A stretch of DNA of 64,000 bases from a bacterium (lineage in GTDB: Bacteria > UBP14 > UBA6098 > 4484-93): positions 47,684 to 111,683 of the forward strand of contig JAGGUN010000027.1 in the NCBI GenBank assembly GCA_021158465.1. Direction: 5' to 3'. Below, in pieces: positions 42,599-50,524 of the stretch; position 1 is the stretch's first letter, and each line of letters begins with the position of its first letter. The notes under the pieces were generated by a model. The model ran no database searches and had not been told where the DNA came from. It saw only the letters and a program-made list of their open reading frames with translations. The position numbers were made by a program, and so were the translations under genes.

Positions 42599-42856
42599 CT
42601 AATCTTTCTCATCCGAGAGGATATCATATAGGAGGTGTGCTTCCTTTTTGGGCAGATTCCCTACCGAAAGCTGCCTAACAACGATACTCAGTGTATGCCC
42701 TGGATACCTAATCGTTATCTTATCCCCCACGGATATATTCTTAGATCCTTTAGCTACCTTTCCATTCACGAGAATAAGACCTTCGTCTGCTGCTTTTTTT
42801 GCGAGGTTGCGCCGCTTTATAAGCCGGGAAACCGAGAGAAACTTGTCCAATCTCAT
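42599..42856 (-). CDS. S4-domain RNA-binding protein (RqcP/Hsp15-like)
   Basis: An 85-residue protein made almost entirely of one S4 domain: MRLDKFLSVSRLIKRRNLAK, then EGLILVNGKVAKGSKNISVGD and KITIRYPG. Small S4 proteins of this type (RqcP, Hsp15) bind the large ribosomal subunit carrying stalled peptidyl-tRNA. Its start overlaps the SurA-like gene by 4 nt. A valS-chaperone-S4 order suggests a protein synthesis and quality-control operon. Confidence 0.88.
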   Translation of the reverse strand: MRLDKFLSVSRLIKRRNLAKKAADEGLILVNGKVAKGSKNISVGDKITIRYPGHTLSIVVRQLSVGNLPKKEAHLLYDILSDEKD

Positions 42857-44145
42857 ATTCTAATATCGATATAGACGGTTTTCCTGAACCTTTCCAGCCA
42901 GCTATCTATCTGTTTCCCAACCTTGTGATTGCGGGCAATGTTCCGGACGATATCGAAATCGGTTTCAAGCGTCAGTTTCCTGCCCGGAGTAAATGAGACA
43001 ACCTTAAATATCTGGAACCCTTCGTCTGTCTCGATTATCGGTAGAATATCTCCTGTGGTTGCCCCCTTCACATATTCCTTCAACGGTGGTAGTAGGTCAT
43101 CAACATAGAACTTGCCAAGGTAGCCTGAGGTGTTATGTGTTGCGGCGTCGTTCGAGAACTCTCTCGCAAGCTCGCCGAAATCGCACAGCGTATCCTGAGC
43201 AAGTGTGCGGACACTATCTGCAAGGGAGATAAGCTGTTGGTATCGCTCGGGCGTAATGGGTGTCTTGACAAGTATATGAGCAACCTCGACTGTCTCATTG
43301 CTCTTCGAAAGGAGCTTCAAGATCTCAAACCCCTTTCGGCTCCGGACAGGCTCAGAAAATTTTCCTACTTCGAGCGAAAAGACAACAGAATCCAGCGGTG
43401 CCGCCAGGTCACCTCGCTTGAACCTGCCAAGTATCCCCCCTTTCTTCGCGGTTGCATCATCCTCCGAGTACCTCTTAGCACAAACCTCAAAGCTACTCCC
43501 TTTCACAAGCTCCTCGTATACCTTTTCAATCTTCTCTCTTGCCCTCCTTACCGTTTCACTATCGGGGGATGCTTCTATGAGTATAGCGGCAAGCTCGACC
43601 GATGCTGGGATATCGGGAAGCGAATCCTTGAACTCCTCGTAGAAACTTTTAACATCCTCATCAGAGAGCTCAACCATTGTGAATTTCCTTTGCAAGAACC
43701 GCTCTTTCAAGAGTGAGTTCCTTATATCACGTTTCATCTTTTCCCTGAATGTCTTGACACTGAATCCGAAGCTCGCAAGCTCTTGCTCGAACTCCTCCGC
43801 AGATGGATATTTTTCTTTCATCCTTTCCCAGCGCTCGTTCCAGATTGAGTCCACCTCGTCCTCCGAGACTTGGATGCTTTCCCTCTCCGCCGCCACAAGA
43901 ACAAGGCTCTCTTCTACTAAACGCTCCAGAACATCCTCCATTACACGCCTTTTGCCCTCTTCTGTTCCGAGCTCATCTCCAGAGATTAGACCCTGCTGAA
44001 CGAGAGTTGCTACGGCAAAGTTGAGCTCTGACTCCAGTATCGGATCATCTCCAACGACAGCTACTATCCTGTCCTCGGAAATCTGAGAAAAAACAAAAAG
44101 TGGGAAAAGGATAAAAAGGAGGCTAAATACTGTCTTCCACCGCAT
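42853..44145 (-). CDS. surA: SurA-like periplasmic peptidyl-prolyl isomerase/chaperone
   Basis: A 430-residue exported protein. After the signal peptide (VFSLLFILFPLFVFS) comes a SurA-type N-terminal domain (IVAVVGDDPILESELNFAVA, then VLERLVEESLVLVAAERESI). Two parvulin domains follow: one near 180-275 (CAKRYSEDDATAKKGGILG, FSEPVRSRKGFEILKLL) and one near 286-390 (EVAHILVKTPIT, ARE-FSNDAATHNTSGYLG, GFQIFKVV). SurA escorts outer-membrane beta-barrel proteins. A GAGGAG site precedes the ATG, and the gene overlaps the previous isomerase gene by 23 nt. Confidence 0.92.
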   Translation of the reverse strand: MRWKTVFSLLFILFPLFVFSQISEDRIVAVVGDDPILESELNFAVATLVQQGLISGDELGTEEGKRRVMEDVLERLVEESLVLVAAERESIQVSEDEVDSIWNERWERMKEKYPSAEEFEQELASFGFSVKTFREKMKRDIRNSLLKERFLQRKFTMVELSDEDVKSFYEEFKDSLPDIPASVELAAILIEASPDSETVRRAREKIEKVYEELVKGSSFEVCAKRYSEDDATAKKGGILGRFKRGDLAAPLDSVVFSLEVGKFSEPVRSRKGFEILKLLSKSNETVEVAHILVKTPITPERYQQLISLADSVRTLAQDTLCDFGELAREFSNDAATHNTSGYLGKFYVDDLLPPLKEYVKGATTGDILPIIETDEGFQIFKVVSFTPGRKLTLETDFDIVRNIARNHKVGKQIDSWLERFRKTVYIDIRI

Positions 44146-44953
44146 CCGTCGTCTCCTCGTATAACGGATTTATCCAGATAGAATGCTCTCTCCGAAGGGA
44201 GTCTATGAAAGAGTTAATCCTATCCGAACTTCTGCGTGAGTAGAGTATGTAATGAATGTCATCACGAACCGCCTCGAACGGGAGGATTGTTCCCTGGCTA
44301 ACAGAGGAAATCCTCTTGACAATAAAGTAACCGAAATCCGTTTCTATCGGCTCTGATAGCTCACCATCCTCCATCGAGAATGCAACCTTTGCAACCTCCT
44401 TTGGTAGCTCATCTCTTGCGAAAAAGTTACCCGTCGAGTCCGAGAGATACAGGAAGGGCTCGAACCGCTCAATCGGAACACCGCTTGTAATCCTTTCATA
44501 AACAGACCTTGCGGTATCGGCATCCTCGACATTCAGGAGAACGAGCCTGACCATATCGCTCTGGGCGGTATACAGAGAACTGTTGCGATTGTAATACTCC
44601 AGCAAAGAGTCCTCATCTATTTCAATTCCATCCAGCACCACCTCCTGGATGAGATGTTCCGTCAGTATATACCGCCTATAGTTCTCGATCTCCCGCCTGA
44701 TATCCTCACGCTTCTCAAGCTTCCTTTTCATAGCCTCCCGATACAGGAGCTCCTGGTCAATCCAGCTGTTCACAACATCCTTCACATAGCCCGAAGAGAG
44801 TATCTCCGATGAATATCCAGCTACCTGTGCCAGTTCATCTTTGGTAAGCACGGTTCCATCCACACGAGCAACAGGCTCCTCCTTATTCGAACAGGAAAGG
44901 AGCAACAAGAATAATATCCAAATATACTTTACATACCTTTTCATAGGTTTCAT
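44123..44953 (-). CDS. PpiC-type peptidyl-prolyl isomerase lipoprotein
   Basis: A 276-residue predicted lipoprotein. The start is uncertain: ATG at 44953 or 44944 gives a signal (YVKYIWILFLLLLSC) with lipobox Cys, while an in-frame GTG at 44986 lies inside a hairpin. VARVDGTVLTKDELAQVAG and a helical chaperone segment precede one degenerate parvulin domain (GNFFARDELPKEVAKVAF, then SEPIETDFGYFIVKRI). Catalytic-pocket residues are less well kept than in its neighbours, so it may be mostly a chaperone. It is the middle member of three consecutive parvulin genes. Confidence 0.8.
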   Translation of the reverse strand: MKPMKRYVKYIWILFLLLLSCSNKEEPVARVDGTVLTKDELAQVAGYSSEILSSGYVKDVVNSWIDQELLYREAMKRKLEKREDIRREIENYRRYILTEHLIQEVVLDGIEIDEDSLLEYYNRNSSLYTAQSDMVRLVLLNVEDADTARSVYERITSGVPIERFEPFLYLSDSTGNFFARDELPKEVAKVAFSMEDGELSEPIETDFGYFIVKRISSVSQGTILPFEAVRDDIHYILYSRRSSDRINSFIDSLRREHSIWINPLYEETTDAVEDSI

Positions 44954-44968
44954 AAGGAAAGCAGTTGT

Positions 44969-44995
44969 GACCCCGATGTCACTCACACCGGGGTC
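44969..44995 (-). other. hairpin between two isomerase genes
   Basis: GACCCCG and CGGGGTC (7-bp GC-rich stem, 13-nt loop) lie 11 nt after the upstream stop codon and 15 nt before the ATG at 44953. No T-run follows. It could stabilise the upstream message or lower downstream translation. Confidence 0.45.
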
Positions 44996-45006
44996 GGTTC
45001 AGGGTT

Positions 45007-46695
45007 CTACATGGTCGAGGATGTATCGGGAGATTTCTCGTACTTGGACCTATCGATACTGTTGGCAAGCCTATCCTCGAAAATCCTAACCTTTACCTTC
45101 TTTTTCTGCTCTTCAACCCACTTTTTCAGTACCTCTTCCTTCTTCTGGCGGAGTAGCTTGTTTTCTATTCTCTTCTTTACAAGATTAAACTGCTTAACCT
45201 CTGGCTTCTTTCTCTCGATGAGCTGGATGACAGAGTATTTTCCACCGGCTGGAATAGGGTCTGAGATATCACCCGGCTTCATATTCTTCGCTGCCCGAAA
45301 GAGCTCAGGATATCTTGCCTCGGTGAAGAAACCCAACTCTCCCCCACGGGATTTTGCTGATGTTCTCAGTGTGTGCTCCTCAGCCAGCTTTGCAAAATCT
45401 GCACCTGCCTTTGCCTGCTTGGCAAGTTTCTTTGCCTCAGCAGCAGTTGCTACCTGTATCTCCCTGACATTCACCTGCTCAGGTGTCATAAACTCGTCCT
45501 GATGCTCATCGTAGTATTTCCTCACCTCATCCTCGGTCACCTTAGCTTTAGAGTAAATCTCATCATTCTTGAACTTTCTCAGCATCTCACGCTCAATCGT
45601 CTCGGTCAGCTTCTTCTTGTATTCTGGGCTGTCTTCAACCCCATGCTCCTCAGCATATTTCACGAGAAGCTCCTGAATAAGCGCATCCTTACAGTAACCG
45701 AGGAGATCAGCCTCAGAGGAGAATTTGGGTCTACGGTAAGGGGGAAGCCTCTTCAACCCTTCGATAAGATCGCTCACAGTCCAGGAGCCATATTTGTAGC
45801 TCATAAGGGTTTTGGAGCTTTCTTCATCAGAGAATAGAGGTAACCCTGTTTTGCTTGTATCCTGTGCAAATTTGTTGATAACAAGCTTCGCTGTCTCTGG
45901 GTTGAGCTGAACTCCTGCATTCTCCTTGACCTTCTCGACAAATGCATTAGCGAGCTCCTGCTGACGAATCCGCTTGAGCTGTTGACGAAGTTTATCTTTC
46001 TGCTGCTCAAACGGTGGTTGCTCCCTTTTCCGCCTCTCCTCCAACTTTATTATGTGCCACCCAAACTGCGTCTTGACTGGCTTAGAAACCTCGCCAACAT
46101 CGAGTGCGAACGCGGTATTCTCGAACTCCTTGACCATCCTTCCACGTGTAAAGAAACCAAGGTCTCCACCCTTCTTCTTGCTACCAGGGTCTTCAGAGAA
46201 CTTCTCCGCAAGCTCAGCAAAATCTGCCCCAGATTGTATTGCCTTATACAGGCTATCCGCAAGCGACTTATCCTTCACAAGGATATGCCTGGCCCGAACC
46301 TCCTCACCAAGCGACTTATAGTAGTCCATAAGATCATCATCGGTGATGCTAACCTTATCTACAACCTCTTGCTGATACAGAACATTCAAGATGAGATTAT
46401 CCTTGCTCTTTCCAACAGTAGCAAGCACGGTTGAGTCCTTGTCGAGCCCAGCATCGTATGCACCAGTAAGTATCAGTTTATCCTCCACCAGCTGCTCCAA
46501 TTTCTTCTTCTTCTTCTCCAACTCATCCTCAAACGAGGTGAAACGGGTCCACCTCGGGTCGAACTTCGAGTTCACATCATCGATGGTGATGTAGCTCTTC
46601 CCAACCTTCGCCACAACATCCTTGGGCGCCTTCTGGCAACCAGCAATAGCCAGAACAACCCCACCCGACAGCAACAGCATCAAAAACCGTTTCAT
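45007..46695 (-). CDS. PpiD/PrsA-like lipoprotein with two parvulin domains
   Basis: A 562-residue predicted lipoprotein. The start at 46695 follows AAGGAGGT and gives signal MKRFLMLLLSGGVVLAIAGC with lipobox Cys20. An N-terminal chaperone segment (VVAKVGKSYITIDDV) is followed by a first parvulin domain (about 135-230: VRARHILVKDKSLAD, DFAELAEKFSEDPGSKKKGG, TQFGWHIIKLEER). A helical linker then leads to a second (about 395-495: NVREIQVATAAEAKKL, SRGGELGFFTEARYPELF, KYSVIQLIERK). A Lys/Glu-rich C-terminal helix ends the protein. It should help fold exported proteins at the periplasmic membrane surface. It starts 14 nt after valS. Confidence 0.9.
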   Translation of the reverse strand: MKRFLMLLLSGGVVLAIAGCQKAPKDVVAKVGKSYITIDDVNSKFDPRWTRFTSFEDELEKKKKKLEQLVEDKLILTGAYDAGLDKDSTVLATVGKSKDNLILNVLYQQEVVDKVSITDDDLMDYYKSLGEEVRARHILVKDKSLADSLYKAIQSGADFAELAEKFSEDPGSKKKGGDLGFFTRGRMVKEFENTAFALDVGEVSKPVKTQFGWHIIKLEERRKREQPPFEQQKDKLRQQLKRIRQQELANAFVEKVKENAGVQLNPETAKLVINKFAQDTSKTGLPLFSDEESSKTLMSYKYGSWTVSDLIEGLKRLPPYRRPKFSSEADLLGYCKDALIQELLVKYAEEHGVEDSPEYKKKLTETIEREMLRKFKNDEIYSKAKVTEDEVRKYYDEHQDEFMTPEQVNVREIQVATAAEAKKLAKQAKAGADFAKLAEEHTLRTSAKSRGGELGFFTEARYPELFRAAKNMKPGDISDPIPAGGKYSVIQLIERKKPEVKQFNLVKKRIENKLLRQKKEEVLKKWVEEQKKKVKVRIFEDRLANSIDRSKYEKSPDTSSTM

Positions 46696-46709
46696 ACACA
46701 CCTCCTTGT

Positions 46710-49373
46710 TCAAATGGATGTTAATTCGCTCAATGTCCTATTCAACTTATCTATCTTTGCCCTTAACTCATCAACCTTTTTTCTCTCCCTATCCACAACC
46801 TCCTCAGGAGCCTTCTTGGTGAAATTAGCGTCTGAAAGACGCCTCTGAGTCGATGACAATATCCCGCTCAGCCTTTCTATCTCTTTCCTTATTCGTCTGA
46901 CCTCCGACTCTATATCAACCAGCCCCGCAAGCGGAATATACAGTTCCACATCACCCATAATGGCAGAGCCAACAGCACCATCAGGCTTCCTGTCCACAAT
47001 CTTCACATCGGAGAGTTCAGCAAGAAACAAAAGCAGAGAATTATTTCTCTCAAGTATGGGAATCAGGGATTTATCTCGTAAAACGAAGAACGCCTCTGCC
47101 TTTTTCCCCCTCGGTATTGAAAGCTCACCACGAATATTCCTTATCGCGTACACAATCTGCTTGGTGAGTTCAAACTCCCTTTCGGCGTCCTCGTCGATGT
47201 AGAAATCATATGGGTCCGGCCAATCAGCGACGATAAGATGCTTACTCTCCATACCACCTACATAGTTCTCCTTAAGCTTCTGCCAGAGTTCCTCGGTGAC
47301 AAACGGTATAATAGGATGATACAGTCGGAGGATATTATCGATCGTATAAAGGAGCGTCTTTTCAATCTCAGGTTTTGTCTCCTGTTTTGCCAGAACCGGC
47401 TTTATCCCCTCGAGGTACCAATCACAGAACTCGTTCCAGAAGAACTGATAGAGCCTCCTGCTCGCCTCGCCAACCCTGAAATCGGAAAGCGAATTTGAGA
47501 TCTCTGCCTTTGCTTTCTCGAGCCGAGAAAGTATCCAACGGTTTACCAAGAGGGTGGGCGATATATCCTGAATCTCGTACCAGTTATACTGCCCATCGAT
47601 ATTGAGGAACGCAAATCTAACAGCGTTCCAGAGCTTGTTGACAAAGTTCCGCCCCAGCTCGAAATCACGCACAGAAATAAAAAGGTCCTGCCCCTGCGTA
47701 GACTGCGATATGAGCGTATACCGGAGCGCATCCTTGCCATATTTCTCAATTACCTCAACAGGGTCTATCCCGTTGCCAAGCGACTTACTCATCTTCCTGC
47801 CAAGCTTATCCCTGACCGTCCCATGGATGAGAACATCGAAGAACGGCACCTGACCTGTAAAATGTATCCCTGCCATTATCATCCTGGCAACCCAGAAAAA
47901 TATTATCTCTGGCGCGGTAACGAGAATATCTGTTGGGTAGAAATACTGCAAATCGTCTGTGATGGCTGGCCAGCCCATAGTAGAGAAGGGCCAAAGCCAC
48001 GAAGAGAACCATGTATCAAGGACATCGCTATCCTGATGAAGCCTGTTGGAACCACAATGAGAGCAAACCTTCGGCTCGTCCACTGCCACAGTGAACCCAC
48101 CACACTCATCGCACCACCAAACAGGTATCCTGTGTCCCCACCATATCTGACGAGAAATACACCAGTCCTTGATGTTGTGCATCCATTCAAGATATACCTT
48201 CTTCCATCTCGGCGGATGAAAACGGACAATACCCCTCTCAACAACGGCAATCGCCGGCTCACTCAACGGCTTCATCCTGACAAACCATTGGTCGGAAAGA
48301 TATGGCTCAACCTCCGTGTGACAGCGATAACAGTGCCCGACAGAATGGGTATAATCTTCGATCCTCTCAATCAGACCGAGGGATTTCATCCTCTCGACGA
48401 TCTTCTCCCTGGCATCGTATCTATCAAGCCCAGCAAAATCACCCGCATTCTCATTCATCAAAGCATTCTCATCCATAACAACAACCGACGGCAGTCCATG
48501 CTTCTTTCCTATCTCGAAGTCGTTCGGGTCGTGAGCAGGGGTTACCTTCACCGCACCAGTGCCGAACTCCGGGTCAACCATCTCATCTGCAATAACAGGG
48601 ATCTCTCTCCCGATAATCGGGAGAACAAGCGTTTCACCGATCATACCCTTGTAGCGGTCATCGCTGGGATTCACAGCAACAGCAGTATCACCGAGCATAG
48701 TCTCAGGACGCGTTGTCGCAACGACAACATAATCCCCTCTCCTACCTTTGAACGGGTATCTAAGATACCAAAGGTGTCCTTTCTGTTCCTTATGCGTCAC
48801 CTCATCATCGGAAAGAGCAGTAAGGCACTTGGGACACCAGTTGATAATGTACTTCCCCCGATAGATGAGCCCCTCATTGTAGAGCCTAACAAACACCTCC
48901 CTCACGGCACGGGACAGCATCTCATCCATTGTGAACCGCTCACGCTCCCAGTCACAGGAAGAACCCATCAGCTTCAGCTGCTCAACGATCCGTCCACCTT
49001 TTCTTCTCTTCCAATCCCATAGAAGCTCAACAAACTTCTCCCTGCCGATATCCTCCTTCGTTTTCCCCTCAGAGCGAAGCCCCTCAACGACCATATGCTG
49101 CGTAGCAATCCCTGCATGGTCAGTCCCCGGAAGCCAGAGGGTATTATACCCCTCCATCCTCTTCCAGCGGATAAAGAGGTCCTGAAGGGTGTTATTCAAC
49201 GCATGACCAAGATGGAGAACATCGGTAATATTGGGAGGCGGGATAACAATAGAGAAGGGAACCCTATCCGCATCAGCCACAGGATGAAAATAGCCGTTCT
49301 CCAGCCAGACATTATACCACTTACCTTCATACCGCTCAGGGTCGCACCTTGTATCGAGAGTAATCCTGCCCAT
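46710..49373 (-). CDS. valS: valine-tRNA ligase
   Basis: An 887-residue class I synthetase charging tRNA-Val. The HIGH motif appears as PPPNITDVLHLGHALNNTLQ (Asp replaces the usual Gly after NIT). LPGTDHAGIATQ, the CP1 editing insert (TTRPETMLGDTAVAVNP), a zinc-type WWCDECGGFTV segment and the KMSKS motif in KLGRKMSKSLGNGIDP follow. A C-terminal coiled coil (from about 810) carries the tRNA-binding arm. It heads an operon with three parvulins and the S4 protein. Confidence 0.97.
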   Translation of the reverse strand: MGRITLDTRCDPERYEGKWYNVWLENGYFHPVADADRVPFSIVIPPPNITDVLHLGHALNNTLQDLFIRWKRMEGYNTLWLPGTDHAGIATQHMVVEGLRSEGKTKEDIGREKFVELLWDWKRRKGGRIVEQLKLMGSSCDWERERFTMDEMLSRAVREVFVRLYNEGLIYRGKYIINWCPKCLTALSDDEVTHKEQKGHLWYLRYPFKGRRGDYVVVATTRPETMLGDTAVAVNPSDDRYKGMIGETLVLPIIGREIPVIADEMVDPEFGTGAVKVTPAHDPNDFEIGKKHGLPSVVVMDENALMNENAGDFAGLDRYDAREKIVERMKSLGLIERIEDYTHSVGHCYRCHTEVEPYLSDQWFVRMKPLSEPAIAVVERGIVRFHPPRWKKVYLEWMHNIKDWCISRQIWWGHRIPVWWCDECGGFTVAVDEPKVCSHCGSNRLHQDSDVLDTWFSSWLWPFSTMGWPAITDDLQYFYPTDILVTAPEIIFFWVARMIMAGIHFTGQVPFFDVLIHGTVRDKLGRKMSKSLGNGIDPVEVIEKYGKDALRYTLISQSTQGQDLFISVRDFELGRNFVNKLWNAVRFAFLNIDGQYNWYEIQDISPTLLVNRWILSRLEKAKAEISNSLSDFRVGEASRRLYQFFWNEFCDWYLEGIKPVLAKQETKPEIEKTLLYTIDNILRLYHPIIPFVTEELWQKLKENYVGGMESKHLIVADWPDPYDFYIDEDAEREFELTKQIVYAIRNIRGELSIPRGKKAEAFFVLRDKSLIPILERNNSLLLFLAELSDVKIVDRKPDGAVGSAIMGDVELYIPLAGLVDIESEVRRIRKEIERLSGILSSTQRRLSDANFTKKAPEEVVDRERKKVDELRAKIDKLNRTLSELTSI

Positions 49374-49546: not shown

Positions 49547-49575
49547 TTGACAATCCTGCCGGCAATATTTATAAT
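49547..49575 (+). promoter_or_regulatory. consensus sigma-70-type promoter of the structured RNA
   Basis: TTGACA (49547-49552), a 17-nt spacer and TATAAT (49570-49575). Both boxes and the spacing are ideal, the best promoter in the window. The 49426-49546 stretch upstream holds nothing I can name. Confidence 0.88.
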
Positions 49576-49581
49576 GTAGGT

Positions 49582-49691
49582 GGCTGAAGATAAGGGGGGC
49601 ATTTCCCCGGGTCATCAGAGCCTTCGGGCAATTCGTTTTAATAGGTCCGCTGGTGAATAGACACCAGACCCCGCTACTTCAGCCATTTTTT
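49582..49691 (+). ncRNA. structured small RNA of unknown family with intrinsic terminator
   Basis: About 110 nt between the ideal promoter and a T-run. TGGCTGAAG (49581-49589) pairs perfectly with CTTCAGCCA (49677-49685), enclosing three hairpins. These are GGGG/CCCC (49594-49608); a GCC-UUCG-GGC stem with the stable cUUCGg loop (49620-49629); and CTGGTG/CACCAG with an AATAGA loop (49650-49667), extended by GGT/ACC across a bulge. The closing stem followed by TTTTTT (49686-49691) doubles as the terminator. No start codon with a ribosome site or reasonable reading frame is present. It lacks the hallmark sequences of 4.5S, tmRNA, RNase P, 5S and the common riboswitches. A short 6S-type RNA is possible. 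Its 3' end overlaps the last 13 bp of the convergent DUF3800 gene. Confidence 0.72.
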
Positions 49692-50524
49692 ATTCTCCAA
49701 CCAACTTTACGCTTTTCTGGGAACTTTTTTATTCCAAAACCCTGAATCTGACCACCCGGACCTTTATGGAGCTTGCCAACTATCTCTCGAAAAAACGGAT
49801 ACATCCTAAGATACCTCTCGGTCGGTTCCTCCCATTCACCGCCATAGTCTCTAAACTGCCGCATCACATTATAGGCACAGAAGTCCGCCACTTGCAAAAG
49901 ATTGGATGTATCAGAACTCTTAAAGGAGGGCATTCCTTTTACCCTGTCTACAATCACCTTTTGCAAAGTGCTTCCATCTTTCTGCATTTTTACATGCACT
50001 CTTTTAATCAATTTCATATAAGGATAGCGACCCCAAGGCTTTTTGCCACTTATCTTATCTACTATTACATCTCCTTCACCACCAACCCTCTGTAGAAAAT
50101 ACTGATAACGCTCTATCAAAAGCTCATATCCCCAACTACTGGGACTATAAGCCTTTTCCCCATATTTCTCCCGCATCTCGCGCTTGTCAATAACCGAGGC
50201 TAAGAGAGTAATTGGTGAACTCTTTATTACCCTGTATATCTCTCCTGTCATCTCACGGAGAATGGTGTTTGTGATGTTAAATGGTATAAGGTAATGTTTT
50301 TTTCTCTCTTTCGGAATTCGGAACCAATTAGATTTGAACTCGACCTGCTCAGTGCCAAGATATGCCCTCTTAATTCTTTTAAACTCCTGTTCGATACTTG
50401 ACACATTCTTCTTCTCAACAACACAACCAAGATAAACAAAATAGAGGCTGGTGCGTGGAGCATATTCTCGCTCGCCACTCTCATCCACAAACATACGATA
50501 TTCGTTCACATTCTTCTCGCTCAA
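49679..50524 (-). CDS. DUF3800 domain protein
   Basis: A 281-residue protein of the DUF3800 family. Diagnostic parts are the N-terminal RMFVDESGEREYAPRTSLYF (the family's FxDESG), a strand VYLGCVVEKKNV, VDKISGKKP mid-protein, and DTSNLLQVADFCAYNVMRQF (the conserved LLQxADxxA). The acidic residues suggest an RNase-H-like metal-binding fold, but no activity is established. The start is TTG at 50524, overlapping the DUF3108 stop by 4 nt. ATG at 50494, just before FVDESG, is an alternative. It is the last gene of the pil-manC run. Its basic C-terminus ends opposite the small RNA terminator. Confidence 0.83.
   Translation of the reverse strand: MSEKNVNEYRMFVDESGEREYAPRTSLYFVYLGCVVEKKNVSSIEQEFKRIKRAYLGTEQVEFKSNWFRIPKERKKHYLIPFNITNTILREMTGEIYRVIKSSPITLLASVIDKREMREKYGEKAYSPSSWGYELLIERYQYFLQRVGGEGDVIVDKISGKKPWGRYPYMKLIKRVHVKMQKDGSTLQKVIVDRVKGMPSFKSSDTSNLLQVADFCAYNVMRQFRDYGGEWEEPTERYLRMYPFFREIVGKLHKGPGGQIQGFGIKKFPEKRKVGWRIKNG

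Follow-up and report, generated by a model that had tools for sequence, protein, structure and literature searches.

The DUF3800 domain (PF12686) was earlier found associated with putative non-coding RNAs, and an RNase H fold has been reported for it in a paper on rare CRISPR systems (PMC10910872). The domain is also present in some CRISPR loci (PMC10910872, PMC12669027), and two of the Rfam families named after it, DUF3800-I and DUF3800-IX, gained covarying pairs at revision (PMC11701678). RNAs of the DUF3800-V, -VII and -IX families (RF02964, RF02967 and RF02968) are short, structured and convergent with the DUF3800 gene at its 3' end. The DUF3800-VI family (RF02915) is likewise DUF3800-associated, but its Rfam type is cis-regulatory and it lies on the same strand near the DUF3800 5' end. 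Structured RNAs that restrain a nuclease encoded next to them occur in type III toxin-antitoxin systems of the ToxIN kind, where the RNA is an array of tandem repeats located upstream on the strand of the toxin.

The window (the whole stretch of 64,000 nucleotides analysed here) contains, at 49547-49691, what looks like a real stand-alone small-RNA gene, judged from its signals. A sigma-70 type promoter (TTGACA-17-TATAAT, 49547..49575, forward strand) matches the consensus at 12/12 positions, as a reading of the sequence alone had claimed. It is the sole such site in the 11 kb scanned around it, where the runners-up reach 10/12. The promoter is followed by a predicted RNA of ~110 nt (about 49582..49691, forward strand), recognised by its fold, its promoter and a T-run, with its limits inferred as a start ~7 nt past the -10 box and an end at the T-run. 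The ends are joined by a closing helix of 9-10 bp, in which the 5' arm TGGCTGAAG (49581..49589, pair probability about 0.94-1.0) and the 3' arm CTTCAGCCA (49677..49685) are perfect complements over 9 bp. Directly after the helix comes a terminator-like run of six T (49686..49691), so that the ~110-nt stretch with 9-bp paired ends and a six-T stop described in the sequence-only reading is borne out. There is also, as that reading had it, no same-strand gene downstream: valS (46710-49373, reverse strand) is directed away from the RNA and a DUF3800 gene points towards it. The promoter and the terminator-like end agree with the earlier assignment to an independent structured small-RNA gene rather than a riboswitch.

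The predicted structure has a minimum free energy of -44.1 kcal/mol against a shuffle mean of -30.6 (z -3.94), and 0/200 shuffles equal the RNA in stability. Both the closing helix and a hairpin at 49650..49667 (CUGGUG-AAUAGA-CACCAG, pair probability 0.97-0.99) are near-certain in the ensemble, and an inner G-run at 49594..49599 is predicted to pair with 49669-49674 at a probability of about 0.6. A three-hairpin fold had been proposed earlier, which scores -34.8 against the -44.1 kcal/mol of the optimum. Its end helix and its CUGGUG/CACCAG hairpin stand; its cUUCGg and GGGG/CCCC hairpins are outcompeted by other pairings in the ensemble. The overall predicted shape is branched, not a rod with a central bubble. 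This fold is a model of one sequence, for which no homologue was found that could supply covariation. Folding of the minus strand, as an alternative, gave a slightly weaker structure that has no T-run.

The RNA is convergent with the DUF3800 gene (49679..50524, reverse strand, 281 codons, Pfam E=1e-16) and overlaps it by 13 nt. The closing helix contains the DUF3800 stop codon in its 3' arm, and the T-run coincides with the last DUF3800 codons. The label 'orphan' given to the RNA earlier is thus not supported; the RNA belongs with this gene. The five residues that are invariant among the 22 DUF3800 proteins compared (D14, G184, Q211, D214 and G264) are all kept in the window protein, which is a candidate nuclease-like partner of the RNA. 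No match to the protein was found among the defence models of PADLOC, in the PDB by sequence or in NCBIfam, and no close homologue in an exact-peptide scan or a scan of viral contigs. AlphaFold2, run on a four-sequence alignment, returned a pLDDT of 35, too low for the model to be used. The DUF3800 frame begins with a TTG (50521-50524) that overlaps the stop codon of DUF3108, the gene upstream. This overlap suggests translational coupling to DUF3108, although the real start is uncertain.

In the window the DUF3800 gene and the RNA stand between DUF3108 and valS. The gene order SPOR-Sua5-phosphatase-DUF3108 is found complete in six other genomes of the class, with three of the genes in one more, and no relative of the window DUF3800 gene was found in the fetched flanks of these genomes. 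Because the order is conserved elsewhere without such a relative alongside, the gene and its RNA look like an inserted accessory module. On the far side of valS, the window contains three successive minus-strand genes resembling peptidyl-prolyl isomerases (42853-46713), the third of which (45007-46713) matches Rotamase families.

No sequence relative of the RNA was found. A covariance search against Rfam, which the sequence-only reading had proposed as a check, gave zero matches, both at the gathering score and at E<=10; a search for tRNA and tmRNA was empty as well, in line with the earlier remark that no hallmark of tmRNA could be recognised. When a covariance model was built from the RNA and run on 61 genomes, the other 16 of the class among them, and on 83 sources, it returned nothing but the RNA itself. 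DNA searches of 41 genomes, plasmids and phages gave chance-level matches or none, and no RNA was recognised in the region upstream of valS in 12 genomes of the class. Since no relative was found, the RNA is assigned by its position, its promoter, its terminator-like end and the stability of its fold. As it adjoins a DUF3800 gene, is convergent with it and has its own promoter, it is counted as a DUF3800-associated small RNA, previously unlisted and outside all Rfam families.

The surroundings of other DUF3800 genes were surveyed for comparable RNAs. A search for PF12686 covered 386 genomes, 74 of which have it; a search of the class was added, and the 3' regions were collected. The promoter test comprised 92 usable DUF3800 genes and counted convergent promoters matching at least 10/12 consensus positions, with the end of the -10 box 40-165 nt past the DUF3800 stop. 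Such promoters occur at 28/92 DUF3800 genes (30%; Fisher p 8e-9), whereas the opposite strand yields 4/92, further ORFs from these loci 8/180 and dinucleotide shuffles 1.8%. At 11/12 or better the counts are 15/92 for DUF3800, 2/92 for the other strand, 2/180 for other ORFs and 0.2% for shuffles, and no 12/12 site occurs in the 180 control ORFs or in 1840 shuffles. The remaining 70% of DUF3800 genes have no strong convergent promoter by this test.

The sequences behind the convergent promoters are mainly short hairpin RNAs, with the T-run usually at or just inside the DUF3800 gene. A fold z-score below -2 was obtained for 22/28 promoter-bearing 3' regions and 27/160 control ORFs, in a set of 28 that differs slightly from that of the promoter test, because a wider distance range was used, and that excludes two A+T-rich loci (L130 and L152) judged false by eye. 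A run of five T near the stop is present in 20/28 promoter-bearing regions and 43/160 control ORFs. In this fixed-stretch test the window's own locus scores z -1.66, with the 5' arm of the closing helix clipped, compared with -3.94 for the full RNA.

Known families are among the RNAs recovered. In a scan with Rfam models that covered roughly three in four DUF3800 loci, sRNA-type matches were obtained to DUF3800-V (L103), DUF3800-VII (L119 and L120) and DUF3800-IX (L125). All 4/4 have the convergent layout and lie between 83 nt past the DUF3800 stop and 23 nt inside the gene. DUF3800-V and one DUF3800-VII example have a strong sigma-70-like promoter, as does the window RNA. However, neither sequence nor covariance links the window RNA to these three families at E<=10 and, unlike them, it is enclosed by a closing helix around the whole RNA with a T-run directly after it. 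The model of DUF3800-I had no match in 290 genomes; its control was likewise without a match.

The closest relatives of the window protein were collected with a profile of that protein and its nearest relative in the class. Of the three closest relatives found, two (L172, from a Desulfobacterales MAG, and L173, from a Desulfohalobiaceae MAG) each have a TTGACA promoter directed towards the stop of DUF3800; the closest relative within the class (L074/L171, genome G008) has no convergent promoter. The two share an RNA in which GTCCGG and CCGGAC enclose two hairpins and are followed by a terminator hairpin. As in the window RNA, the TTGACA promoter is convergent, a helix closes the structure and a T-run falls at the DUF3800 stop, and the proteins have an ExKSNW motif in common with the window protein. 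The RNAs themselves differ, in that the closed core of the L172/L173 type is shorter and its terminator hairpin separate, and there is no convincing sequence alignment of this type with the window RNA.

Another RNA family, A5, occurs at three DUF3800 genes of the window's class (L076, L079 and L085, in G010, G004 and G008) and has the core UAUAUGGUUYGCCCAGC. It has no Rfam match. Among its three sequences, 8/27 predicted pairs are changed on both sides in a compensatory manner. In 386 genomes the family was found at the three DUF3800 genes and in one weak match (E 0.08), which lies in a genome without a listed DUF3800 gene. Further recurrent convergent types were seen at L077/L078, L084/L097/L112, L092/L147, L137/L149, L148/L166 and, as described, L172/L173. 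These types, grouped by eye and without a Rfam match at the gathering score, are candidates for new families. No recognition motif common to all DUF3800 RNAs was found besides terminator words.

Some of the RNA-bearing DUF3800 genes adjoin restriction-modification genes (Eco57I, N6/N4 methylase, HsdS and ResIII) and others have housekeeping surroundings, the restriction-gene neighbours having been chosen partly for that look and serving as an illustration, not a rate. At one locus (L092, genome G101, 1444-2232) a DUF3800 gene and its convergent RNA are flanked by the mod gene and the res gene of a type III restriction-modification system. Taken together, it is well supported that the pairing of a convergent RNA with DUF3800 recurs in many bacterial families, with RNAs that are built differently.

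Based on these observations, the RNA and DUF3800 are probably a two-gene accessory module in which the RNA is the dedicated partner that controls the protein. The RNA would be transcribed constitutively and in excess, and would fold into a compact closed structure. The DUF3800 protein, with its reported RNase H fold, would bind this dedicated partner, and the bound RNA would most likely restrain the nuclease or set its specificity. Such a complex may be compared to a defence or toxin-antitoxin-like ribonucleoprotein. An RNA in excess that restrains a nuclease is favoured because the promoter is near consensus, the RNA folds are compact and the inserted unit lies partly in defence neighbourhoods. 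A likeness to type III toxin-antitoxin systems is proposed in this sense, although the window RNA is a single non-repeated copy and convergent, unlike the RNAs of those systems. More broadly, and more tentatively, DUF3800 genes and their convergent RNAs may constitute widespread and diverse RNA-protein modules, in which a rapidly changing RNA controls or directs each RNase H-fold nuclease for defence or in a toxin-antitoxin-like role, the window RNA being a type not seen before.

The layout of the locus could also reflect antisense action or transcription interference. Here the RNA and its strong promoter would lower DUF3800 expression, either because the RNA pairs with the mRNA at its 3' end or in its read-through part or because polymerases collide, and the fold would serve mainly stability and termination. 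The window RNA does converge on DUF3800 with a 13-nt overlap, the DUF3800 strand shows no T-run terminator ahead of the RNA gene, and some type I toxin-antitoxin pairs use convergent antisense RNAs. However, a conserved structure is not needed for this role, yet compensatory changes are present in the A5 family and covarying pairs were gained by DUF3800-I and DUF3800-IX (PMC11701678). In addition, some of the RNAs stop short of the gene altogether, as does that of DUF3800-V, which lies 83 nt past it. An antisense function is therefore considered unlikely.

The RNA could instead act as a guide or scaffold, through which the DUF3800 nuclease would find nucleic-acid targets as RuvC-type nucleases do with guide RNAs. 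The RNase H fold and the fact that some CRISPR loci contain DUF3800 (PMC10910872, PMC12669027) are compatible with such a function, as is the position of the RNA gene next to the 3' end of DUF3800. On the other hand, most of the RNAs behind the convergent promoters are largely folded and end near the terminator, leaving no evident unpaired variable segment, and an unsystematic look around the window RNA recognised no CRISPR array or transposon feature. A guiding role is accordingly improbable, and restraint of an antitoxin-like kind is preferred over it because the RNAs are tightly folded, are mostly 60-150 nt long and have no evident guide segment.

A 6S-type RNA, here a divergent one with RNA polymerase as its binding partner, was the main alternative named in the sequence-only reading. 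Like 6S RNA (RF00013), the window RNA is small and stand-alone with closed ends, and it has a strong promoter. Nor is a true 6S RNA recognised in the class: the RF00013 model, run on 41 genomes, had no match within the class and was silent in 17/17 of its genomes. The 6S RNA of the class is thus either lost or too divergent for this model, whose silence speaks neither for nor against a divergent 6S RNA. However, 6S RNA is expected to be conserved, whereas the window RNA's own covariance model brought up no second copy in 61 genomes, the rest of the class and the genus included. The RNA also sits in an inserted DUF3800 module instead of a conserved locus, and its predicted branched fold is not the rod with a central bubble of 6S. 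This alternative is therefore very improbable and loses the place it had been given. A chance combination of promoter-like and hairpin sequence that yields no transcript would fit a predicted RNA for which no homologue was found, but deserves hardly any credence, since the 12/12 promoter stands where DUF3800 genes are promoter-enriched and the fold has a z-score of -3.9.

With DUF3800 as its probable partner, an apparently isolated RNA becomes one half of a recurring pair. The locus also provides a rule for finding others, namely a consensus promoter aimed at the 3' end of a DUF3800 gene, which recovers two known Rfam families and several types of RNA without a Rfam match. The link between DUF3800 and non-coding RNAs, so far unexplained, thereby becomes directly testable. 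If the RNA does restrain or guide the protein, these pairs would represent a new and broad class of nucleases under RNA control.
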